Source of the DNA: a virus
DNA length: 38,900 nt
Strand: one strand, 5' to 3'
IMG/VR virus record: IMGVR_UViG_3300036985_008099
Location: 1-38,900 of that record
The position numbers and the translations under genes were made by a program. Positions 58 to 38,724 of this stretch are shown in pieces. The notes under the pieces were generated by a model. The model searched no databases. It saw nothing but the letters and a program-made list of their open reading frames with translations, and was not told where the DNA came from. The number at the start of each line of letters is the position of its first letter. The first letter of the stretch is position 1.

Positions 58-591
58 GTGACAAAGCGCGTCGACGCGCTGTCACACGCCCAGATCGCCG
101 CTCGGTCCGGAATCTCGGCCAACACGTGGCTCAAACACCGGCTTGCCGGCGCGCCGCGGCCAAAGGGCCAGAGCGAGGCCGCGATCGCGCGCTGGCTGCG
201 CGAGTATCAGTCGTGGCGACTGGCCAACGGCAAGGTCTCGTCGGAGGAGCGGGCCGCGGCGCGCTCTCAAGACAGCGACGCCGAGAACGACCACTGGACG
301 ACCGAGCGCAAGAAGTGGCTCGCCCAGTTGGCCAAGATCGAGTTCGCCGAGCGAATGCGCCAGCTCGTGCGCCGCGAGGACGTGATCGAGTTTGCATCGA
401 AGGCTGCGCTGACGGTCACGCACCGACTCAACTCGCTCGTCACCAAGATGGCCCCGCTGCTGATTGCGTGTCGCACGGTCGACGAGGCCGAGGAAATGCT
501 ACAGGCCGAAGTCGACGACGTGCTGGCCACGTTCCGTCGCGGCCTCGAACCACCAATGGAGGGACCGCGCCATGACGAACCTGCTGCTTGA
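37..591 (+). CDS. Terminase small subunit
   Basis: Probable DNA-recognition subunit of the packaging motor; it would bind the packaging site and recruit the large subunit. The 184-residue product has an N-terminal helix-turn-helix-like stretch (about residues 16-36, with QIAARSG then ISANTW), a charged linker, and a helical C-terminal half (about 85-160) suited to oligomerisation. It precedes and overlaps the large terminase by 20 bases, the usual Nu1-A arrangement. The start is undecided: in-frame GTG codons lie at 37, 43 and 58 and a TTG at 49, and none has a strong ribosome-binding site. GTG at 58 (VTKRVDALS) would give 177 residues. A segment around residues 86-123 recurs in a short early gene at 34590. 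The assignment rests on position and fold pattern, not on a conserved catalytic motif. Confidence 0.8.
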   Translation: MFVGLWVVTKRVDALSHAQIAARSGISANTWLKHRLAGAPRPKGQSEAAIARWLREYQSWRLANGKVSSEERAAARSQDSDAENDHWTTERKKWLAQLAKIEFAERMRQLVRREDVIEFASKAALTVTHRLNSLVTKMAPLLIACRTVDEAEEMLQAEVDDVLATFRRGLEPPMEGPRHDEPAA

Positions 592-2449
592 CCCCAGGAT
601 CCTGGACGGCTTTCGGCAACCGGAGCGCCTGTCAGTCAGCGAGTGGGCCGACGAACACCGGGTGCTCGACAACAAGGTCGCGGCCGAGCCCGGGCGCTGG
701 CGCACGGACCGGGCCCCGTATGCGCGCGAGTGGATGGACTCGGCCAGCACCAAGTGGGTCAGGCGCGTCACGATCATGGCCTCGACGCAGGTCGGCAAGA
801 CCGAGGCGGCCAACAACGTCATCGGGTACTTCGTCAGCCAGCAGCCCGCCCCGATCATGATGGTGCTGCCGCGCGCCGACGACGCCAAGGTCGCGCAGGC
901 CCGCCGCATCGTCCCGATGATTGACGCGTCGACCGCGCTGCGCGCCGAGCTGACTCCTCGAGCTCACGACGTCAGCCAGCGCGAGATCGTGTTCCGCCGA
1001 TCGATTGTGTATTTCCGCGCGGCCCAGTCACCGGCAGACCTCGCGTCGGTCCCGGTTCGTGTCGTGCTCGGCGACGAAACAGACAAGTGGCCGAGCTGGT
1101 CGGGGCGCGAGGCCTCGCCGCTCGCGCTCGTTCGCTCGCGCACCAACACGTTCCCGCGCTCGTACCTCGTGTTCCTCACGAGCACGCCGACAACTCGCGG
1201 CGGCCTCATCACGAAGGAGTTCGAGGACGGCGACCAGCGCCGGTTCTACGTGCCCTGCCCGCATTGTGGCCGGCACCAGGTCCTGAGCTGGCCGAACCTG
1301 CATTGGGACTCGGAGCGCATCCAGACCGCGGCCGACATGCGACTGGCGCGCGAGGCCTGGTTCGATTGCGTTCATTGCGCCAAGCGCATCGAGCAGAAGG
1401 ACAAGGCCCGCCTGCTCGGCGGTGGCATCTGGGTTCCCCGTCGTTGCACGGTCGAAGACTGGGTGGGGGGCGACCGCGAGCGCGACCGGGTCGAGCACCG
1501 GTCCTACCACTTGTGGGCCGCCTACTCGCCGTGGCTCGACTGGTGGCGCCTGGCCGCCAGCTTCCTGAAGGCCAAGGCCGAGGGCCCGGCCGAGATGATG
1601 GACTTCACCAACAGCTGGCTGGCCGAGGTCTGGGAAGACCGCCTCGAGCACGTCGGCGACGAAGCGCTGCACGCGTGCGTCGAGCAGCGTGCCCAGGGCG
1701 ACGTGCCCGAGGACGTGCTGGTCGTGACCGCGGCGGTCGACGTGCAGCTCGACCGCCTGGAGTGGTCCGTGCAGGGGTGGGGCCGGGACGAGGAGACGTG
1801 GGTGCTGGCCACCGGCCGGGCCAAGACGTTCGACGAGCTGACCGACGTGCTGATCCGGACCAGGTGGGGCAAGGGCCAGCTCGCGCCGAGGGCCATCGTG
1901 ATCGACTCGCGCTACCGGCGCGACGAGGTCTTGGACTGGTCGCGGCGCCACCAGCCGGTGGTCCGGATGATCGCGGGCGTCGAGCGCGACGAGCCCATCC
2001 CGTTCTCGACCAAGAAGCTCGACCGGCACCCGCGCACCGGGCAGGTCCTGCCCAACAGCACGCTGGTCTGGTCCGTGAACGTCAGCCTGTTCAAGGACAT
2101 GGTCGCGGCGCGCCTCGAGCTCGCCAGGTCTCACCCGAACGAACGCGGCGGCCGCATCCACCTGCCCAACGATCTGCCCGCAGACTGGCTCACGCAGCTC
2201 GGCAGCGAGCACAAGGTCATGGAGCGGAGCGGCGGCAGGGAGCGAAGCCGGTGGGTCAAGAAGCCCGGCCACCAACGCAACGAGGCCTGGGACTTGACCG
2301 TCTACAACCTGGCCGCGGCCCGCATGGTCCGGGTCGACACGCTGCGCAGTGACGTGGCCGCGCCCACGCCTCGAGCACAGCCGCCGCAGCGGCAGCGCCG
2401 GCACAACTCCTCGGCTCGGTTCCCCCACTTCGGCGCGGGAGGTAGGTGA
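572..2449 (+). CDS. Terminase large subunit, GpA family
   Basis: ATPase-nuclease that pumps and cuts phage DNA at the portal. The 625-residue protein has the family landmarks in order: the Walker A variant STQVGKTE at residues 71-78; Walker B VVLGDETDKW with acidic residues at about 168-169; a four-cysteine zinc knuckle typical of GpA proteins (CPHC, then CVHC, about 230-270); and a C-terminal nuclease domain with acidic motifs in TAAVDVQLDRLEW (about 390) and VIDSRYRRDEV (about 445), ending in RNEAWDLTVYNLAAAR. The start is ATG 572, preceded by GGAGGG at 557-562, overlapping the small subunit gene by 20 bases. Length is close to lambda gpA (641). The downstream gene overlaps its stop codon by one base. 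Confidence 0.96.
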   Translation: MTNLLLDPRILDGFRQPERLSVSEWADEHRVLDNKVAAEPGRWRTDRAPYAREWMDSASTKWVRRVTIMASTQVGKTEAANNVIGYFVSQQPAPIMMVLPRADDAKVAQARRIVPMIDASTALRAELTPRAHDVSQREIVFRRSIVYFRAAQSPADLASVPVRVVLGDETDKWPSWSGREASPLALVRSRTNTFPRSYLVFLTSTPTTRGGLITKEFEDGDQRRFYVPCPHCGRHQVLSWPNLHWDSERIQTAADMRLAREAWFDCVHCAKRIEQKDKARLLGGGIWVPRRCTVEDWVGGDRERDRVEHRSYHLWAAYSPWLDWWRLAASFLKAKAEGPAEMMDFTNSWLAEVWEDRLEHVGDEALHACVEQRAQGDVPEDVLVVTAAVDVQLDRLEWSVQGWGRDEETWVLATGRAKTFDELTDVLIRTRWGKGQLAPRAIVIDSRYRRDEVLDWSRRHQPVVRMIAGVERDEPIPFSTKKLDRHPRTGQVLPNSTLVWSVNVSLFKDMVAARLELARSHPNERGGRIHLPNDLPADWLTQLGSEHKVMERSGGRERSRWVKKPGHQRNEAWDLTVYNLAAARMVRVDTLRSDVAAPTPRAQPPQRQRRHNSSARFPHFGAGGR

Positions 2450-2700
2450 TGGTTCGGCGCATCGACGAGAGCGACGACACACAGCCGATCGTGCCGTTCG
2501 TCCCGTTCCGCTGTCCGGTCTGCGGTCGGCACAAACCCATCACGCACGGCGTCCGCGGCCGCATTCGTTACCACCGCTGCGCGGCCTGCGGCTGCAAGTA
2601 TCGGTCGTACGAGATGGAGATCGCCAAGGCCTATGACCAGCTGGGCTACCCACGCGTCACGTCCAGTCCGCCTGACGGACTCGGTGACGCCGCAGAGTGA
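2449..2700 (+). CDS. Small zinc-ribbon protein
   Basis: An 83-residue protein of unknown function. It carries two CxxC knuckles, CPVCGRHK near residue 23 and CAACGCKY near residue 44, spaced like a zinc ribbon, with an acidic N-terminus. ATG 2449 overlaps the terminase TGA by one base (TGATG) and is preceded by GGAGGTAGG, so it is translationally coupled to packaging. A GTG at 2446 is an alternative. It could be a transcription factor-like or nucleic-acid-binding accessory of packaging; nothing in the sequence decides. A strong terminator-like hairpin follows it. Confidence 0.75.
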   Translation: MVRRIDESDDTQPIVPFVPFRCPVCGRHKPITHGVRGRIRYHRCAACGCKYRSYEMEIAKAYDQLGYPRVTSSPPDGLGDAAE

Positions 2701-2762
2701 GCCCGCGCGCATAGCGTCCTGGCGTGCAGTCACGCGCATGGTTCGATGATCGATGTGAGGGG

Positions 2763-2795
2763 GTCCCGCCGGTGGCGAGCCGGCGGGACTTTTAT
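2763..2795 (+). terminator. Rho-independent terminator-like hairpin
   Basis: A perfect ten-base-pair stem (GTCCCGCCGG pairing with CCGGCGGGAC), a seven-base loop, and then TTTTAT at 2790-2795. It lies in the only sizeable gap (118 bases) between the terminase block and the next gene, in the middle of what should be one late transcript. Read-through by antitermination, or a separate promoter for the downstream gene, would be needed. No convincing promoter was seen in 2701-2762. Confidence 0.75.
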
Positions 2796-2818
2796 CTCTC
2801 GATCCGAGGCTCGGCCTG

Positions 2819-4882
2819 ATGGCCGTCAAGCCTTTCATCCTGACGTTCGGCCAGTCGAACGGCGGCGCGCACGCGGACTACTCGAGCTGGGAAGTGGCCA
2901 ACCCTGGGCTCGCGGTCGGGTTCACGGCCCTGTCGAGCAACTCGCCGACTGGCGGATACGCCGACGTCCTGGACATGCCAGGAACGTGGCCCAGCCGCTA
3001 CCAGAAGGCCGCGCTGAAGGGTCGGGCTGTCGCGGCCATCAGGTACCTGACGTTCTACAACCCGGTCGCGACGGGCCTGATCTACACCCAGTTCCCGCAC
3101 CGTGCGCTCGTCGCGACCATCATCTCGCACGACTCGGCCGCGACTTCGCTGTCCGTGCCCACGATCTGGCAATACTCGCCGGTCGGCCGAACCATCGTGC
3201 GTTCGAGGACCCGGACGGTGCACACGATCGGGGCCTGGGGCGGCGTGATCTCGCCGGCCCTCGGTGGCCAGATCGCGGTCTCGCCCGCGTTCGACCCGCC
3301 GCCGGCCGTTGGCGAGCAGATCGAATACGCCGTGCACGCCGGCGCCAACTCGGTCGACGCGACCAAGGTGGCGTTCGACATGCGGTTCGGCGGCGACTTC
3401 GGCGACGGCGTCTGGAACGCGTCGCTCGCCGGCCTTCGCGCCAGGTGTGTGGCCGGTGCCAATGCGGGAGTCAGCCGGACCATCAACGATGTGACGTTGG
3501 ACGGGTCCGTGATCGTGCAGGTCTCGTTCACGGCCGCCTGGTCGTCGATGCCTCAGGCAGGGGACCAGTTCGTCATCGAGCCGCACCCGCTGCCCGACGG
3601 GACGGCTGTGCCGTACGAGAAGTTCGGGGTCTTCCTGCCGTGGGCGGGACTTGAAGGCCAAGCTCTCGGCACGGCCCTCAGCATCACGGGCGCGGTCAGC
3701 GCCGGTGCCGGCCTCACGCGCTTGCTCGTGGCCAACACCATGCTGGCCAACGACGTGGTCCAGGTGACGGGCACGACCTCGTACAACGGGGACCCGCTGC
3801 TAGTCATGGCGCTGGACGCCTCCGGCATCACGGTGGCCAAGACGTTCGTCGCGACCGAGACCGGCACGCTGCGCGTCTACGGCAAGTCGAACCCTTACCC
3901 GCCCGGGTTCTCCTACCCGAACCACCACACGCAGCCGCCGCTCTACCAGCCGTTCCGCAGCGGTTCGCTGATGTATGGGGTCGGGGCCAAGTTCGCGAGC
4001 GCCCGTGCCGCGTACCACACGACGCTGGCCAACCTGCTGCAGGAGCGCCTCGGCGACACGATCTACGTCGCGTCGCTCGCGGTTGACGGGACCACGATCG
4101 CTCACAACGAGCTGTTCGCTCCGGTCACGACCGACGCGATCGGCTGGTTCGATCCGAGGCAGCAGCTTTCGTGGGCGCCGGGCGAACCGAACGGCTGCGC
4201 CCAACGCCTGCTCGATACGCTCGACGCGGCCATCGCGGCCGCCGCGCTCGAAGGCCACACGCTCGAGGTCAAGCTCGTGGTCTCGCCGTTGGGCGAGGGC
4301 GACAGCGCGTTCGCTTGGAGTGCGCCGCGCTTCGCCGCCGGCCTTCGCATGTTGAAGGGCTGGGTCCGCGACGCGCTCAAGAGCCGCGACCTGTGGCCCG
4401 GCGACGCCGATGAGATCCCGTGGGTCTGGCCCAAGATCCGCGAGGCCGCGCCCTGGACCTACGCCACCACGATCAACACGGCCATCGAGGCCGAGGTCGA
4501 GGCCGACCGGTATCTCGCGACGTGCGAGGTCTCGGACCTGACGGTCCTGACCGAGGTCGGGGGCAACGTGCACTACGACGGCACGTCCGTCACGGCGCTG
4601 GCCAACCGGGTCATGGCCGCGTGGGAAGTGGCGCGCCTCGGCACGCCGGTCGCCGTCGCGTCGCCCGCGTCGGTCACGACCGCGCCGAGCGACACGCCCG
4701 AAGCCATCCTGGCCGCGATCGACGCGGCCATTCGAAGTGGTGGCGACGTGGCCGCCTACACGGTCAACGGTCGCACGGTCCAGCTCCGGTCACTGACCGA
4801 GCTGATCACGGCCCGCAAGTACTACGAGGCCCAGCAGGCGCGCTCGCGCGGACTGCGCAGGACCAAGGTCAGGTTCCGATGA
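2819..4882 (+). CDS. SASA/SGNH-type esterase fused to a gpW-like head-tail connector
   Basis: A two-part 687-residue protein. The N-terminal ~600 residues resemble the sialate O-acetylesterase (SASA) branch of SGNH hydrolases: nucleophile block FGQSN with Ser13, a GEGD block near residue 490 in place of the usual QGESD, and a C-terminal NVHYDG block with His near 585. The Asp normally three residues before that His appears to be Gly. A poorly conserved stretch of about 150-330 looks like an inserted beta domain. The last ~60 residues (from about 628) look like lambda gpW: a helix, a short beta hairpin (YTVNGRTVQL), a second helix, and a basic tail ending RRTKVRFR. Lambda W lies between A and B, exactly as here. 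The stop codon overlaps the portal start (ATGA). Start ATG 2819 follows GAGG near 2806. The gpW assignment is by pattern and position. Confidence 0.75.
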   Translation: MAVKPFILTFGQSNGGAHADYSSWEVANPGLAVGFTALSSNSPTGGYADVLDMPGTWPSRYQKAALKGRAVAAIRYLTFYNPVATGLIYTQFPHRALVATIISHDSAATSLSVPTIWQYSPVGRTIVRSRTRTVHTIGAWGGVISPALGGQIAVSPAFDPPPAVGEQIEYAVHAGANSVDATKVAFDMRFGGDFGDGVWNASLAGLRARCVAGANAGVSRTINDVTLDGSVIVQVSFTAAWSSMPQAGDQFVIEPHPLPDGTAVPYEKFGVFLPWAGLEGQALGTALSITGAVSAGAGLTRLLVANTMLANDVVQVTGTTSYNGDPLLVMALDASGITVAKTFVATETGTLRVYGKSNPYPPGFSYPNHHTQPPLYQPFRSGSLMYGVGAKFASARAAYHTTLANLLQERLGDTIYVASLAVDGTTIAHNELFAPVTTDAIGWFDPRQQLSWAPGEPNGCAQRLLDTLDAAIAAAALEGHTLEVKLVVSPLGEGDSAFAWSAPRFAAGLRMLKGWVRDALKSRDLWPGDADEIPWVWPKIREAAPWTYATTINTAIEAEVEADRYLATCEVSDLTVLTEVGGNVHYDGTSVTALANRVMAAWEVARLGTPVAVASPASVTTAPSDTPEAILAAIDAAIRSGGDVAAYTVNGRTVQLRSLTELITARKYYEAQQARSRGLRRTKVRFR

Positions 4883-6549
4883 AGCGCGCGACCAGCCAGC
4901 TGCCGCGCAAGGGCATCTACGACGGCGTCCGTGGCCGCCTCGCCAAGGCGGTCGACGCGGCCGTCGGCCTGGTCGCACCGCGCCTCGCGCACGAGTGGCG
5001 CCGCGCCCGCGTCCGGTCCGAGGCCTTGCTCGCGTTCGAAGCCGCGCGCATCTCGCGCCTGAACCCGTCGCAATCGAGCAGCAGCGCGGACGGCGAGATC
5101 CTGGCCGACCTGCCGCAGCTGCGCGCGCAGTGCCGCCAGCTCGTGCAGAACGACGGCCACGCCGCGTCGGCGATCGCGATCCTGTGCGAGGCAATCGTGG
5201 GCGACGGGATCCGGCCCCAGTCGGTCGCGACCGCGAAGGGCACGGGCCTGTCCGACGCCGAGCTGTTGGCCTGGCGCGAAGCGTGCAACGCCGAGTGGGC
5301 ACGCTGGGCCGAGCAGGCTGACGCCACCCAGTTCGGCACGTTCTACGACCTGCAGGACCTGGCCCTGCGCCACCTGATCGTCGATGGCGAGTGCTTCGGC
5401 CACACGGTCATGGACCGGGCCGGAGACGTCTGGGCTGAGCTGCTCGACCCGGACCGCATCGAGTCACCCGGTCGGTTCGACACCGCGACCATCCGGGGCG
5501 GCGTCGAGCTCGGCGAGCGCGGCGAGCGCGTCGCGTTCCACGTGCTCGATCACCACCCCGATGACATGCTGCTCTACGGTGCCAAGGGCTCGTGGAACCC
5601 GACCCGCATCGCGGCGAAGGACGGCCGGTTCTCCATGATGCAGCACGGCCTGCGCCGGCAACGCGCCGGCCAGACGCGCGGCGTGCCGTGGCTGGCGCCC
5701 GGCATCGAGTGCCTGCGCCACCTGCACCACTACCTCAGCAGCGAGCTGATCGCGGCCAGGGCCAGCAGCAACTACGCGCTCTTCATCAAGCGCAACGTCA
5801 GCGACCTCGACCAGGACATCCTGCCCGTGCAGGGCCAGGAGGATGCGGGGCGCAACCAGGACTTCCACGAGTTCCTCGAACCCGGCACGATCGAGTACCT
5901 GAACGAGGGCGAGGAGCCCGTGCCGTTCAGCCCCAATCGGCCCGGCAGCTCGTTCGGCCCGTTCGTCGAGAGGATGCTCCGCGCGATCGCGATCACGGTC
6001 GGGATCAGCTATGAGGTCCTGACCAAGGACCTGGGCAGGATGAACCTGTCGTCGGCTCGCGCCATGTTCCGCGAGCTGCACAAGAACTACGACCGCGGCC
6101 GCTCGCTGCTCAACCGCAGCTGGAACGGACCGTGGTGGCGCAACGTGATCCTGGCTGGAGTCGCGACGGGTCGTATCCAGGCGCCGCGCCGGTTCCTGGA
6201 CCGCATCGACGCGTTCCTCGCGGTCCGGTGGGTCGCGCCCGCATACGGCTTCGTCGACCCGGTCACGGACGTCGAGGGCAGCCGCGCCGCGGTCGAGGCC
6301 AACCTGTCGACGCCGCAAGAGGAGTCCGCGCGCTACGGCCAGGACTACGAGCACGTCCTGACCGAGCGAGCCCGCGCCTATCAGCGCGCTGCCGAGCTCG
6401 AGGCCGAGTACGGGCTGGAGCCCGGCACGCTCACGAAGGAATCACCGACGCGTTCCGAGAGCGCGTCCACAGCTCCGAGCGAACCGACCGGCGGCGACTC
6501 GGACCCGAACCAAGACCAGGAGGACAGCGATGGCCCCGATGACGAGTGA
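4879..6549 (+). CDS. Portal protein, lambda GpB family
   Basis: Forms the dodecameric ring at the capsid vertex through which DNA enters and leaves. The 556-residue product shows the lambda-type portal pattern: an N-terminal SADGEILADLPQLRAQCRQL segment, then NDGHAASAIAILCEAIVGDGI, DGECFGHTVMD, an LLDPDRIESP turn, and the C-terminal LGRMNLSSARAMFRELHKNY helix; it ends in an acidic, disordered tail. Length matches lambda gpB (533). ATG 4879 overlaps the upstream TGA by four bases, so translation is coupled to the gpW fusion. The 3' end overlaps the protease gene by 20 bases. Confidence 0.95.
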   Translation: MKRATSQLPRKGIYDGVRGRLAKAVDAAVGLVAPRLAHEWRRARVRSEALLAFEAARISRLNPSQSSSSADGEILADLPQLRAQCRQLVQNDGHAASAIAILCEAIVGDGIRPQSVATAKGTGLSDAELLAWREACNAEWARWAEQADATQFGTFYDLQDLALRHLIVDGECFGHTVMDRAGDVWAELLDPDRIESPGRFDTATIRGGVELGERGERVAFHVLDHHPDDMLLYGAKGSWNPTRIAAKDGRFSMMQHGLRRQRAGQTRGVPWLAPGIECLRHLHHYLSSELIAARASSNYALFIKRNVSDLDQDILPVQGQEDAGRNQDFHEFLEPGTIEYLNEGEEPVPFSPNRPGSSFGPFVERMLRAIAITVGISYEVLTKDLGRMNLSSARAMFRELHKNYDRGRSLLNRSWNGPWWRNVILAGVATGRIQAPRRFLDRIDAFLAVRWVAPAYGFVDPVTDVEGSRAAVEANLSTPQEESARYGQDYEHVLTERARAYQRAAELEAEYGLEPGTLTKESPTRSESASTAPSEPTGGDSDPNQDQEDSDGPDDE

Positions 6550-7618
6550 GTTGTTGCGCGAGTCCGACACGGGCCTTGTCCAGATCCCGAAGTCAGCGTT
6601 TCAGCTGAAGGACCAGGACAGCGGCGTCGAGATCGCGAAGGGCGACGAGAAGAAGTCGCGCAAGTTCAGCATGGTCGCGACGTCGGGCAAGCCGCTCGCG
6701 CACTGGTGGTTCGGCACGCTCGTGATCGACCTGGCCGGCATCGCGATGAAGCAGCAGCTGCCGGTCCTCAAGGACCACGACACCAACCAGCGCATCGGGT
6801 TCACCTCGTCGCTGAAGGTCGAGGAGCGCGGCCTGGTCGCCGAGGGCCAGCTGCTCAGCAACCAGTTCGCGCAAGAGGTCCTGGCTGACCACGCGGACGG
6901 GTTCCCCTGGCAAGCCTCGATCTACCTGCAGGCCTCGCGCATCCAGTATCTCGAGGAGGGCGAGTCGGCCACCGTGAACGGCCACCAGGTCGACGGGCCT
7001 GCCGCGATCTTCCGCGAGTCGACCCTGCGCGAAGTGACGTTCTGCGCGCTCGGCGTCGACGACGACACCTCTGCCACTCCGATGTCGGCCGCATTGGCCG
7101 ACACGGTGGCGGTCCACCTCAGCAAGAGGGATTCCAGCATGACGAAGCCCGAGGCCCCCGTGGCCAACAAGACGGCGCCGGCCCCGGCGCCGCAGGACAT
7201 CTCCGCACAGCTCGCCACCGCGCAGCACGAAGGCGCGACAGCCGAACGCCAGCGCGTCCTCGCGATCCTGGCCCAGACCGGTGAGGGGCAGCACGAGCTG
7301 GCCCTGAGCCTCATCGACACGGGCAAGTCGCTGCAAGAAGCACTGCTCGCGATCAACCAAGACCTGCGAGCCAAGCTCGCGGTCAAGCCCCAGGCGGGCG
7401 CCGAGCCCAGCGTGTCGCTGGCCCGTGGCAACACGGCCAACGTCGTGACCGACAGCAAGGCCTCGAGACTCGCGGCCATGCCCGAGGGCGAGACCAAGTG
7501 GCGCGCCGAGTTCGACGCGTCGGCCGAGCTGCAGCAAGAGTTCGGTGGCGATGTCGAGGTCTTCCTCGGGTTCAAGCGGAACGAGGTCAACCAGAAGGTC
7601 GCGAAGAGCAAGGACTGA
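6530..7618 (+). CDS. Prohead protease with C-terminal scaffold domain
   Basis: Capsid maturation serine protease of the S78-like type joined to a scaffold. A likely triad is His83 in LKDHD, Ser130 in WQASIY, and Glu168 in LREVTFCALG, the last matching the 'LxEVS' strand of the family; ERGLVAEGQL at 99-108 is also typical. From about residue 200 the protein turns into an Ala/Pro/Gln-rich linker and a helical segment (AERQRVLAIL and following) expected of a scaffold. Start ATG 6530 follows CAGGAGGA and overlaps the portal gene. An in-frame ATG at residue 204 with its own ribosome-binding site may yield the scaffold alone, as lambda C yields Nu3. A perfect hairpin covers the stop codon. Confidence 0.88.
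   Translation: MAPMTSELLRESDTGLVQIPKSAFQLKDQDSGVEIAKGDEKKSRKFSMVATSGKPLAHWWFGTLVIDLAGIAMKQQLPVLKDHDTNQRIGFTSSLKVEERGLVAEGQLLSNQFAQEVLADHADGFPWQASIYLQASRIQYLEEGESATVNGHQVDGPAAIFRESTLREVTFCALGVDDDTSATPMSAALADTVAVHLSKRDSSMTKPEAPVANKTAPAPAPQDISAQLATAQHEGATAERQRVLAILAQTGEGQHELALSLIDTGKSLQEALLAINQDLRAKLAVKPQAGAEPSVSLARGNTANVVTDSKASRLAAMPEGETKWRAEFDASAELQQEFGGDVEVFLGFKRNEVNQKVAKSKD
7139..7618 (+). CDS. Probable free scaffold protein from an internal start
   Basis: In the protease frame, ATG 7139 (MTKPEAPVANK) is preceded by AAGAGGG at 7124-7130 with an eight-base spacer, better than many true starts in this window. It falls exactly where the protease domain ends and would give a 159-residue Ala/Gln/Glu-rich helical protein. 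Lambda makes its scaffold Nu3 from an in-frame start inside gene C in the same map position. The evidence is the ribosome-binding site and the domain boundary; expression is inferred. Confidence 0.6.
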   Translation: MTKPEAPVANKTAPAPAPQDISAQLATAQHEGATAERQRVLAILAQTGEGQHELALSLIDTGKSLQEALLAINQDLRAKLAVKPQAGAEPSVSLARGNTANVVTDSKASRLAAMPEGETKWRAEFDASAELQQEFGGDVEVFLGFKRNEVNQKVAKSKD

Positions 7619-27870: not shown

Positions 27871-28934
27871 CCATGCTCGCGCTTCTCGCCTCGACCAACC
27901 ACGTATCGCAAGTGCGTGGCCGCATCGTGCAGGTCCTCGGCAACGAGGTGCACGTAGCGTTGGGTCGTGGTGTAGCTCGAGTGGCGCAGCTGGCGCTGCA
28001 CGGTCCCGGCCGGCACGCCGGCCCGGATCAGGTTGGTGGCGAGCGAGTGGCGCAGGGCGTGCGGGTGGAAGCGGGCGTCGTCGAACCGCGTAGCCCATCG
28101 GCGGAACAGCCGGTCGATCCACTGGACGCGACGGCGCTCCTCGGTGCCGGGCACGACGTGCCCGCCCTCAGCTCGCGCCACGAGTCGACCAGCGGCCTCG
28201 GCGATGTCGGCCACCAGCGGCAAGGCCTCGTCCTTGGTCTTGCCTCGCACCCAGACCAAGCGCCGCTGCAGGTCGAAGTCGATGGCCTGCAGGCGCGCGA
28301 ACTCGGCCCGGCGCAGCCCGGTGAACGCCAGGAACAGGACCACGTCGTAGTCCTCGGGCACGGCGCGCAGCTGGTCGAGCCACTTGACCATGGTCTCGGC
28401 GTCCATCACGTCGGGCTGGACGGTCTGGGCCTCGGGCCACGAGGCCAGCGGGACCGGGTTCTCGCCGCGGAACCACTGGCGCTGCGGCTTCATGGCCCAC
28501 GTGACCAGGCGGTGCAGCCAGCGCCGGTAGTGCTGGATCGTGCGGGCCGAGAACTTGCCCTGCTGCGCGATCGCGATCAGGGACTGGAGCACGGCGGGCG
28601 TGAGTCGTTCGAGCGGCAGGTCCGGGTTCAGGATGCGGAACACGGCCCTGGCCTTCTGCTCGTAGAACTCGACCGTGCCGGCGCGCCTAACGTGCCTGAT
28701 CTCGTCGTGCATGGCGTCGGCCGCTTCCTTCAGCGTGACCGTCACGGCCGGCCGGGCCTCCTCGTCGGCCCGCATCCTGGTCGCGTCTCGGTGCGCGTCC
28801 ATCGGGTCTTGGCGGGCCGGTCCGTAGGTCCGGCGCCCGTCGATCATGGCCCAGCCCCGGAAGCTCGCCCCGCGGACCTGAACCCATGGCGGAAGACGCC
28901 GTCGACTGCTGCGCGATTTGGCCCGTTTCGTCAC
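27867..28934 (-). CDS. Tyrosine-recombinase integrase
   Basis: A 355-residue site-specific recombinase. The catalytic residues are visible: Arg208 (TGLRRAE), a Lys at 232 or 234 (GKTKDEALPL), His292-x-x-Arg295 (HALRHS), His318 (LRHSSYTTT) and nucleophile Tyr327 (TQRYVHL). The N-terminus has a basic stretch and an arm-binding-type region, followed by a SAM-like core-binding domain (about 70-165). It starts at GTG 28934, next to short repeats at 28949 and 88 bases from a tRNA-Leu fragment, so its gene borders attP and Int may repress its own synthesis. Confidence 0.95.
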   Translation of the reverse strand: MTKRAKSRSSRRRLPPWVQVRGASFRGWAMIDGRRTYGPARQDPMDAHRDATRMRADEEARPAVTVTLKEAADAMHDEIRHVRRAGTVEFYEQKARAVFRILNPDLPLERLTPAVLQSLIAIAQQGKFSARTIQHYRRWLHRLVTWAMKPQRQWFRGENPVPLASWPEAQTVQPDVMDAETMVKWLDQLRAVPEDYDVVLFLAFTGLRRAEFARLQAIDFDLQRRLVWVRGKTKDEALPLVADIAEAAGRLVARAEGGHVVPGTEERRRVQWIDRLFRRWATRFDDARFHPHALRHSLATNLIRAGVPAGTVQRQLRHSSYTTTQRYVHLVAEDLHDAATHLRYVVGRGEKREHG

Positions 28935-28948
28935 ATTTGGAACGTTAC

Positions 28949-28971
28949 TTTGTGGCCACTATTGTGGCCAT
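28949..28971. repeat. Left arm-type repeats of attP
   Basis: Two 11-mers, TTTGTGGCCAC (28949-28959) and ATTGTGGCCAT (28961-28971), start 12 bases apart. They match four similar copies right of the tRNA fragment, as integrase arm-binding sites do on both sides of a core. The core of each, GTGGCCAC, is itself a palindrome. Confidence 0.65.
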
Positions 28972-29022
28972 CCCCCTCGCTCGATACCATCATGCACGAC
29001 GTAACTCGTTACCCGCACTCAC

Positions 29023-29068
29023 GCCGGAGTGGCGGAATCGGCAGACGCACAGGTTTCAAAAACCTGTG
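29023..29068 (+). other. 3'-truncated tRNA-Leu(CAA), probable attP core
   Basis: The sequence follows tRNA-Leu from the first base: acceptor strand GCCGGAG, TG, a D-arm (GCGGAATCGGCAGACGC), anticodon stem CAGGT/ACCTG with loop TTCAAAA, anticodon CAA at 29057-29059. After the anticodon stem the resemblance stops: no TPsiC arm (GGTTCRA) and no 3' acceptor strand follow. So it is not a working tRNA gene. A part-copy of a host tRNA beside the integrase is the signature of an attachment core; the crossover is probably in or near the anticodon loop. Confidence 0.75.
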
Positions 29069-29332
29069 GAGCAGAAGCGCCAGGGAAGAACGCCTCGCCC
29101 AGTCTGACCCGCGCGACGTTCGTAACTCGCGCCGCGACCAGAGCCTGAGTCGCGAGGTTGCCTCGGACCGGAAACACACCGGCAAGGCCCACCTGACCCG
29201 TTTGGGCGCGTCTTTTGTGGCCACGTTTGTGGCCACGCGTGTGGCCAAGGCTGTGGCCACGCCCGAGGGCCTGTTGCACCTGTCGCTCGGGCTCGTGTTG
29301 CTGTGCGCGATCTTCGCGCCCGGAGGTGCCCG
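29069..29332. other. Right side of attP, largely non-coding
   Basis: The stretch between the tRNA fragment and the early operon. It holds the four-copy repeat at 29214-29260. The last ~80 bases before 29336 can be read as a short hydrophobic peptide (about TPEGLLHLSLGLVLLCAIF) whose TGA would overlap the next GTG start; no reliable start was found, so no gene is called. Nothing else was recognised. Confidence 0.45.
29214..29260. repeat. Right arm-type repeats of attP, four copies on a 12-base pitch
   Basis: TTTGTGGCCAC at 29214 and 29226, CGTGTGGCCAA at 29238 and GCTGTGGCCAC at 29250, each exactly 12 bases after the last. Two more copies lie left of the tRNA fragment. The direct-repeat clusters flanking a core resemble the P and P' arm sites of lambda attP. 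Confidence 0.7.
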
Positions 29333-29551
29333 GTGAGCCCTCGTCCTCGGCCCTGTGCCACGCCCCAGAGCGTGCCGCCTCCGACCCATCGCGAGATGCT
29401 GGAGCTCGAGACGCGCGTGCGTGAACTGCAGGCGCGCAACGATCGCCTGCAGGCCTCGATCCATCACGTCGTCCGGTGCGCGCGCTCCGCGACCGGCGAG
29501 CTTGCCGAGGCCATCGCGGCCGCGGCTCGACTCTGCGTGGGTGCGTCTTGA
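29333..29551 (+). CDS. Small coiled-coil protein
   Basis: A 72-residue product from GTG 29333: a Pro/Arg-rich start, then a helix REMLELETRVRELQARNDRLQ with leucine spacing of a coiled coil, and an Ala-rich end. It precedes ParB with a four-base overlap (TTGA) and follows GGAGGTGCC. Function unknown. It may be the first gene of the large early operon. Confidence 0.5.
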   Translation: MSPRPRPCATPQSVPPPTHREMLELETRVRELQARNDRLQASIHHVVRCARSATGELAEAIAAAARLCVGAS

Positions 29552-36731: not shown

Positions 36732-36792
36732 CCGAGCACGGTGAATGCACGCGCGCCTGGCGCACCCAGGTGACTCAAAACAAGGAGTGCCG

Positions 36793-38724
36793 ATGCACTT
36801 GCTGTGCTTGCTGTTTTTGTTGATTGCGTCGCTCGCGGCGCAGGACCCGATTGTCATCGCCAACTATGCGAGCGAGACCCAGCGTGGCTGGACGTTCGTT
36901 GGCCTAACAGCCGCGCCTGAGCACCAGACGGGCTGGCTGAAGGCGGATGACGGGATGTTCGCACCCTACGTGCGTGACACGGGAGGCGTTCGCGTCTGGG
37001 CTGCGGTGCCCGCTGGGGGCGTCGCCAAGCTCTTCTGGGTGGACAAGCCTCGCGAGTCGCCGGGGTTCACCTGGCACCCCGTGGTCGAGGTCAATGCGAT
37101 GCGGCTGCTGCCGTATTGGACGCTGGGCGATGAACGCTCGGAGCCCGCGGCCATGCGCGTCGTGCACGCCACGGACGCGGTGCTGCGCGTGCACCTCCGC
37201 ACGGTCTTCGCCTCGCGTCGAGTCACGATCGACTGCTGGCTGACCGCCACGAGTGGCGAGCCCACGATCGAGATGGTGCAGAGCGCGGTCTATGGCGACA
37301 CGCGCAACGACGGACAACCCCAGTCCGTCGTGCTGCCCGAGCTGCGCATGTGGTGCGACGGTGGCAGGATCGTGGACGACGAGTGGCGCCGGCACGGCCT
37401 CGGCCTCGCGACCTGGACGCCAGGTGCCATTTGGTATCAGCCCGCCGTGCCTGCCGGCACGCGTTGGCATCGAGCCAGCAGGTTCATCCTGAGAGGCGCG
37501 ATCATGGCGGCCAACGAGCCCGTGCGCCTCGAGGGTCGACCGCTGGTCGGTCTGAGCCTCGGCTGGGCCGGCAAGTGGGGCCCGATCGGGGTCGTGCCGA
37601 CGCCGAACGCCGACATGCAGCAGGCTGTCGCACGGCAAAAGTCGGCGTGGTTCGGTCGCACCTTCGGCACCTACGCGCAGCAGCGGCCTGAGTGCCAGGG
37701 GTTCGCGTCATCGACGGGCGAGAACCAAGGCTTTGGCTGGGCCTCGCACCACGCCGTCAGCACGGGCGACCCGTGGCCCATTCTCGATCTGCTCTGGCAG
37801 GTCGAGGCATACGGGATCCGCCCGACGGCGAACAAGGAGCCCGACGGTTCGCCCATGCAGGCGATTCTGCACCCGCAGGCGCGCACGATGAACCAGCGCC
37901 CGGACTTGAACCTGGGCCTGCCTGATCGTCTTGGCTGGCCCGGAATCAACGGCATCGCCTGGATTCCGGCACCGACGTCTGTGGCGTATGCGACCGAGGA
38001 CGACGAGCACCGAGCCCCCGTCGAACTAGCGGCCGCCGCGGCGTTGACGCGGGACCCGTTGGTCGAGTCAATCATCGACGACCTGATCCAGCTGGACGGC
38101 ACCGACGTGTATGTGCGCGAGCACCGCGTGCCCAGTGCTCGATCAATCGGCCGCACCGCGCTGGCTGGCGCTTGGTGGGCATGGCTTGGCCACCGTGAGG
38201 CCGAGCCGATCCTGCGCCAAAGGCTCGACGACGCGCTGACACTGCGCGCCGCGTCCTGGCCAGGTCGACCCGTCGCGACGATCGGTCCCAACGACCAGGC
38301 CAAATACGGCTGGTTCATCGGCGGCACGACCAAGCCGGTCTACGGCTGGCAGCCTTGGCAGCAGGTGATCGCGGCAGGCGGGCTACGAGCTGCAGGCTTC
38401 GCGCTCGGGGAGCAGCGATACCTCCTTGCTGGTGAGCAGCTCGCCACGATGGTGCTGGACGAGGCCTACCGGGTGCAGGCGGGCAGTCTGAAGCACGCGT
38501 ATGCAGTGACCTACAACGACGGCCAACCGCTCGCTGACGAACGCTGGCCCATCGCCGGCAACCTGCGCGAGATCTACAACGACCACGTCTATGTGATCCC
38601 GGACACGGACACGTGGACTGTTGGCGCCGCGCTGATTGCGCGGAAGCATCCGCGTGCCGAGTTGGTCAGGACCGCTACCCCGATCCGCACCGGCATGAAC
38701 GCGCGATGGCGCGCGTTGCGTTGA
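36793..38724 (+). CDS. Large secreted protein of unknown function, next to the genome end
   Basis: A 643-residue protein with a Sec signal (MHLLCLLFLLIASLAAQ, cut probably before DPIVIA). The N-terminal ~260 residues are beta-rich (RGWTFVGL, GGVRVWAAVPAGG, ATDAVLRVHLRTVF, RVTIDCWL); from ~270 on the protein is helical with repeated W/G patterns (GQHHAV... GDPWPILDLLWQVEAYG; ALAGAWWAWLGHREAEPIL), as in an alpha/alpha toroid. A beta domain followed by a toroid recalls polysaccharide lyases and similar carbohydrate enzymes, but no catalytic motif is recognised. ATG 36793 follows AAGGAG. A 61-base gap separates it from the early operon. It may be a depolymerase, an exported lysis-related or a lysogeny-conversion protein. 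Confidence 0.65.
   Translation: MHLLCLLFLLIASLAAQDPIVIANYASETQRGWTFVGLTAAPEHQTGWLKADDGMFAPYVRDTGGVRVWAAVPAGGVAKLFWVDKPRESPGFTWHPVVEVNAMRLLPYWTLGDERSEPAAMRVVHATDAVLRVHLRTVFASRRVTIDCWLTATSGEPTIEMVQSAVYGDTRNDGQPQSVVLPELRMWCDGGRIVDDEWRRHGLGLATWTPGAIWYQPAVPAGTRWHRASRFILRGAIMAANEPVRLEGRPLVGLSLGWAGKWGPIGVVPTPNADMQQAVARQKSAWFGRTFGTYAQQRPECQGFASSTGENQGFGWASHHAVSTGDPWPILDLLWQVEAYGIRPTANKEPDGSPMQAILHPQARTMNQRPDLNLGLPDRLGWPGINGIAWIPAPTSVAYATEDDEHRAPVELAAAAALTRDPLVESIIDDLIQLDGTDVYVREHRVPSARSIGRTALAGAWWAWLGHREAEPILRQRLDDALTLRAASWPGRPVATIGPNDQAKYGWFIGGTTKPVYGWQPWQQVIAAGGLRAAGFALGEQRYLLAGEQLATMVLDEAYRVQAGSLKHAYAVTYNDGQPLADERWPIAGNLREIYNDHVYVIPDTDTWTVGAALIARKHPRAELVRTATPIRTGMNARWRALR

Follow-up and report, generated by a model that had tools for sequence, protein, structure and literature searches.

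The gene at positions 2819..4882 (+ strand) of the window, by which we mean the whole 38,900-nucleotide stretch of viral DNA that was analyzed, is a fusion of a SASA-type SGNH hydrolase module, a linker, and a gpW-like head-tail adaptor, 687 aa in all, with full-length relatives in nine other contigs. Judged by comparison of the sequences, this fusion is conserved and under purifying selection, its module occurs on adaptors of three types, and the module is swapped between phages. We consider it probable that the product is an exchangeable esterase or lectin of the SASA type mounted on the phage neck, where about 12 outward-facing copies would act on glycans of the host or of the extracellular surroundings.

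Positions 2819-4882 hold one uninterrupted reading frame of 687 residues (ORF translation). Upstream lies the large terminase subunit of the gpA type (464..2449, +; Pfam GpA_ATPase 2e-68 and GpA_nuclease 3e-63), which is counted here from the first ORF start and is conserved from about residue 38. Downstream is a lambda-family portal protein (4879..6549, +; Pfam Phage_portal_2 7e-87), whose start overlaps the stop of the fusion as ATGA. The gene therefore occupies the slot of gpW, between large terminase and lambda-type portal. The preliminary description had placed it in exactly the A-W-B position; terminase and portal bear this out, but a small zinc-ribbon protein (2446..2700, +; CPxC..CxxC motif) with counterparts in L003, L029, L030, and L032 intervenes between A and the fusion. 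A GC-rich stem-loop followed by TTTT (2763..2793, +; RNAfold -26.7 kcal/mol) lies 26 nt upstream of the fusion start. Its stem is perfect, and a similar structure of different sequence precedes 8 other gpW-type fusions as well as L060 and L069; it is possibly an attenuator or a cassette boundary. This element was found by script, and a simple terminator scan of 2300-5000, which applies a stricter T-run rule, returned none. Elsewhere in the window, two large ORFs at 27873-29336 (487 aa) and 36745-38724 (659 aa) had no PHROG match.

The gpW-like adaptor domain spans residues 624-687 (4688..4879, +). The last 65 amino acids matched gpW-type PHROG families, namely phrog_2545 (head-tail adaptor Ad1, 4e-6), phrog_118 (2.5e-5), and phrog_5774 (head-tail joining, 3e-5). 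The match to phrog_5774 covers the W part only (profile positions 106-157 of 177) and does not extend to an Ig-like N-terminal attachment domain. When a profile of nine gpW-like ends was compared with PDB sequences, the best match was the adaptor chain of roseophage R4C, 8gtd_M (E 0.0012). AlphaFold2 (AF2) predicted the end as a helix-hairpin-helix with a pLDDT of 79.7, in which helices at 5-17 and 37-54 enclose strands at 23-27 and 30-34. The top three Foldseek matches of this model were 8gtd (the R4C adaptor) and 2l6q and 1hyw (lambda gpW); the E-values are weak (0.04-0.19), and despite this the ranking obtained with the predicted model is unambiguous. Taken together, three independent approaches agree on the W identity of the C-terminal end, with modest E-values, and the gpW-type fold that had been suspected for the last 60 or so residues was recovered. 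Gene and fold are those of gpW; the size is not, since gpW is free and has about 68 residues, whereas here W is the C-terminal domain of a 687-aa ORF. A profile search of the window in six frames detected no second W gene. An internal start for W was also considered and rejected: none of the possible start codons in the window has a good ribosome site or is conserved, and L030, L040, and L041 do not have them at all. These three relatives have no in-frame ATG, GTG, or TTG from which a free W could begin (60 relevant codons), and on this reading of their codons an internally initiated W is excluded in them.

The SGNH/SASA module takes up approximately residues 1-608 (2819..4642, +), with a large insert separating block I from the C-terminal catalytic half, and is followed by a variable linker rich in Pro, Ala, and Thr that was delimited by alignment (residues 608-623; 4640..4687, +). 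The window protein itself had no match in the Pfam profile search, neither to SASA (PF03629) nor to gpW (PF02831). Of these two profiles, which the preliminary description had named as checks, SASA matched 6 of 8 aligned close relatives (best 8e-8), with others reaching 5e-13 and 5e-10, while gpW gave way to the PHROG families above. At a pLDDT of 58.9, the AF2 model of the whole protein is weak and unfit for active-site geometry. Even so, its best Foldseek match, for what a low-confidence model can tell, was the SASA structure 1zmb (E 8e-5), and 2apj and 3pt5 (NanS) also had a probability of 1.00. These three are the SASA structures named in a review of the family (PMC9487903). SASA and PHROG profiles and folds thus agree with the original proposal of a SASA/SGNH-type hydrolase fused to a gpW-like end.

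The motif positions given in the preliminary description were likewise correct. Block I is GQSN at residues 11-14 (2849..2860, +), which contains the GQS of SASA enzymes with Ser13 as nucleophile and Gln12 as oxyanion residue. Block III is GEGD at residues 492-495 (4292..4303, +) and block V is VHYDG at 584-588 (4568..4582, +; NVHYDG at 583-588), with His585. In an alignment of 49 modules, Gly11, Gln12, Gly492, and Glu493 are invariant. The Gln of block III (QGE) is present in 47 of 49, the exceptions being the window protein and L003, both of which have LGE (residue 491 is Leu), so that the window protein lacks the (H)QGE of SASA/CE6 enzymes. The DxxH of block V occurs in 28 of 49 modules and is also missing from the window protein, in which Gly stands at His-3 in place of Asp, as had been noticed. 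The block V Asp is absent from NanS as well, which is nevertheless an active SASA enzyme (PMC9487903), and the missing Asp alone is therefore no argument against activity. The missing block III Gln, as the alignment reads, is a further deviation from SASA. Eight TTPA-type modules (L044, L046, L047, L048, L051, L052, L053, and L081) have GQN in place of GQS and have lost the nucleophile; in L046 and L048 the block V His is absent too. This GQN clade is, from its motifs, probably not catalytic.

With Asp and Gln missing from the window protein and Ser from one TTPA clade, activity may be absent or beside the point, and the window module is best called a putative hydrolase or binder. The same losses are what would be expected of a pure lectin, a degenerate SGNH domain providing weak, reversible attachment to glycans without hydrolysis, as has been suggested for Ig domains and the carbohydrate-binding modules (CBMs) of phage necks, the latter known from the lactococcal neck passage structure (PMC6669499). 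Most of the family, however, keep Ser, Gln, QGE, and His, and the activity of NanS and the DxxH of more than half of the modules argue in the same direction. We regard a pure lectin as possible, if doubtful; it is a sub-case of the neck-mounted module and differs from it only in catalysis.

The module plus W fusion was found at full length in nine other contigs at 33-62% identity, making ten with the window. The closest, in L003, is 62% identical over its whole length; those in L005, L006, L007, L008, L010, and L023 are 52-62% identical, and the combination of module and W is also present in L041 and in L073, which is more distantly related. All of these fusions lie directly upstream of the portal. 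dN/dS is well below 1, dN being much smaller than dS both in the module and in the adaptor, and these substitution rates show the fusion to be under purifying selection. A search for related genomes with separate genes, which the preliminary description had put forward as a way to refute the fusion, showed that the close relatives all keep it. A free W of 71 residues occupies the same slot in L016, a distant relative (terminases of such relatives are 25-34% identical). L009 (8199-11354) and L012 (2119-5550) have a W fusion of 1052-1144 aa in total in this slot, but there the N-terminal part is longer and of another kind, resembling two SGNH-type domains with SGNH-like motifs; a SASA profile match was obtained in L009 only. 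All relatives with the module are uncultured contigs. Two scans of genome contigs found no relative of the module in bacterial genomes, by which a bacterial source or prophage was rejected, and tblastn found none in plasmids or cultured phages.

The module is also carried by adaptors unrelated to gpW in other phages, which the preliminary description could not see. IMG/VR was scanned with module peptides only, and loci with incomplete 3' ends were left out, giving 64 loci. Sixty-two of these 64 complete loci end in a recognized head-tail adaptor, of the gpW type in 10, the HK97/SPP1-type Ad1 in 14, and the podophage TTPA type in 38; the counts include near-duplicate contigs and are not numbers of independent events, and the classes rest on scans of representatives against public libraries and, for the remainder, on profiles built from those representatives. 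The Ad1-type tails match phrog_477 (head-tail adaptor Ad1) and Pfam DnaT_2, and the TTPA-type tails match phrog_394 and phrog_9239 (tail tubular) and PDB 8ck1 (Connector Protein). In the Ad1-type loci that were checked, the fusion follows terminase, portal, and head morphogenesis genes and precedes head-closure or Neck1 genes; in the TTPA-type locus that was checked, a phrog_376 tail protein lies downstream. The same adaptors are free proteins in cultured phages, of approximately 180-223 aa in BPP-1 (bbp14) and R7M (gp29), with a further example in the TTPA of Podoviridae ctQRb9. gpW and Ad1 resemble each other neither in sequence nor in structure (PMC4362835). The Ad1 and podophage TTPA adaptors probably share a helical fold, and the safe claim is therefore that the module, by these sequence matches, has been joined to anchors of two or more unrelated folds, the clear case being only gpW versus the rest.

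Three further observations concern adaptor loci. In L035 (9786-10328) and L107 (7870-8388) the module is joined to a common tail of about 160-180 aa that had no Pfam or PHROG match and is perhaps a fourth adaptor type. In Alteromonas phage R7M, the free Ad1 gene is immediately preceded, with an overlap, by gp28 (L093:2929-6393), whose 1154-aa product has PKD and Ig-like domains and is perhaps an unfused counterpart. Limnohabitans phage DC33 (L088; PQ492659.1) is filed as Inoviridae, yet its genome is 39 kb long and includes an adaptor gene of the podophage type, and that assignment looks wrong.

In the module tree, a single clade of gpW-fused modules was rejected (AU p 2e-5), and the Ad1-fused module of L031 was placed among the gpW-fused modules of L008, L023, and L005 with support of 98/97. 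Two pairs of phages that are approximately 90% identical, L031/L034 and L030/L040, differ almost only in the module. The flanks of L031 and L034 are mostly 92-99% identical per 300 bases, with one window of 85% and with 59-72% just upstream of the gene, compared with 49-70% within the module; as protein, the module of L031 is 66% identical to the gpW-fused module of L008. L030 and L040, both of the gpW type, are 80-98% identical outside the module and mostly 26-63% inside it. As these alignments read, the module differences in both pairs are natural exchange on a nearly constant virion. The specificity domains of tailspikes are likewise exchanged on an otherwise constant virion, and this likeness suggests that the target is not the same in all hosts or habitats; by analogy, it would most simply be an acetylated polysaccharide of the surface or matrix. 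The swapping shows diversifying exchange and does not itself give the cause.

We propose that the gpW part assembles, like lambda gpW, into a 12-mer ring under the portal and that the linker allows the module, in about 12 copies, to project outward all around the neck. There, in the manner of esterase tailspikes, the modules could attach to a glycan on the host surface or in the surrounding matrix, or remove its acetyl groups. The module would be a cassette that phages attach in different variants to gpW, Ad1-type, and TTPA-type adaptors and swap among themselves. Position and copy number are drawn by analogy from two known structures: lambda gpW forms a 12-fold ring under the portal with its C-arm bound to the portal (PMC10721106), and in R4C the N-terminal Ig domain of the gpW-type adaptor, present in 12 copies, lies at the ring periphery and outside the capsid (PMC10276861). 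Of the three placements considered at first, namely outside the connector, cut off, or inside the virion, the two structures favor the first.

R4C also supplies the argument for another role. Its authors found that the N-terminal Ig attachment domain contacts the capsid and suggested that it stabilizes the neck rather than aiding adsorption (PMC10276861), and a module that has lost Ser or His in some members might similarly be a non-enzymatic structural or assembly part bracing the portal vertex against the capsid. Cassette swaps inside near-identical virions would be unexpected for a part fitted to one capsid, and the GQ and GE motifs that never vary, with the nearly universal QGE, also speak for something other than a brace. 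We consider this role unlikely.

Processing of the fusion, in which a protease frees W to work alone and leaves the enzyme soluble or related to lysis, appears improbable. The variable, Pro/Ala/Thr-rich linker would suit it, as would a maturation protease-like ORF among the head genes (6530-7618), but no conserved cleavage-like motif was seen in the linker by eye, and there would be no point in joining the module to three adaptor types only to cut it off again. A prohead protease would also hardly reach gpW, which in lambda joins the particle once packaging is over. A frameshift, assembly, or sequencing artefact joining two genes is ruled out for practical purposes by nine conserved relatives with different linkers and a low dN/dS, although the closest records are metagenomic assemblies.

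The enzymes that phages direct at the host surface are usually sought on tail fibres and tailspikes. If the neck-mounted module is real, the neck would be a second, modular site of contact with the host or matrix, besides the tail tip. In addition, with adaptors hidden at the end of ORFs of 650-1500 residues, adaptor genes in metagenomes may be missed or misnamed. We found no literature on a neck esterase-adaptor fusion among open-licence papers, and an earlier description is possible.

Among known systems, lambda gpW resembles the window adaptor in gene position before the portal, fold, and domain size; it is, in contrast, a free protein of 68 residues without an enzyme. The R4C adaptor (vBDshSR4C_004; PDB 8gtd; phrog_5774) is alike in joining a gpW-like two-helix/hairpin adaptor, with a C-terminal hook, to an extra N-terminal domain on a flexible loop, but that domain is an Ig-like fold of about 106 residues, whereas here it is an SGNH hydrolase of about 600. 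The SASA/CE6 esterases (NanS, 3PT5; At4g34215, 2APJ; CAC0529, 1ZMB) share the GQS of block I, the GE of block III, the His of block V, and the fold; they have no phage adaptor attached, and the window protein has LGE in place of their (H)QGE and contains a large insert. Host contact at the level of the adaptor has precedents, since sugar-directed activity has been reported for TTPA proteins of Klebsiella phages (PMC5440376) and in a Vibrio phage both TTPA and TTPB bind a host receptor (PMC7241545). The TTPA of Klebsiella phage KP32 (gp31) is, like the present protein, a component of the adaptor ring, but its activity is ascribed to the adaptor itself, which has a small lectin-like part and no fused SGNH module. 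The neck passage structure of lactococcal 936 phages likewise places carbohydrate-binding modules at the collar and varies them between related phages (PMC6669499), but it is a separate, fibre-forming protein that is not fused to an adaptor. Finally, the esterase tailspikes of G7C, Moo19, and B2 are virion-borne esterases that act on host LPS (PMC11654681); they are trimeric and anchored to the tail through their N-terminus, whereas in the window fusion the enzyme is N-terminal and the adaptor is the anchor.
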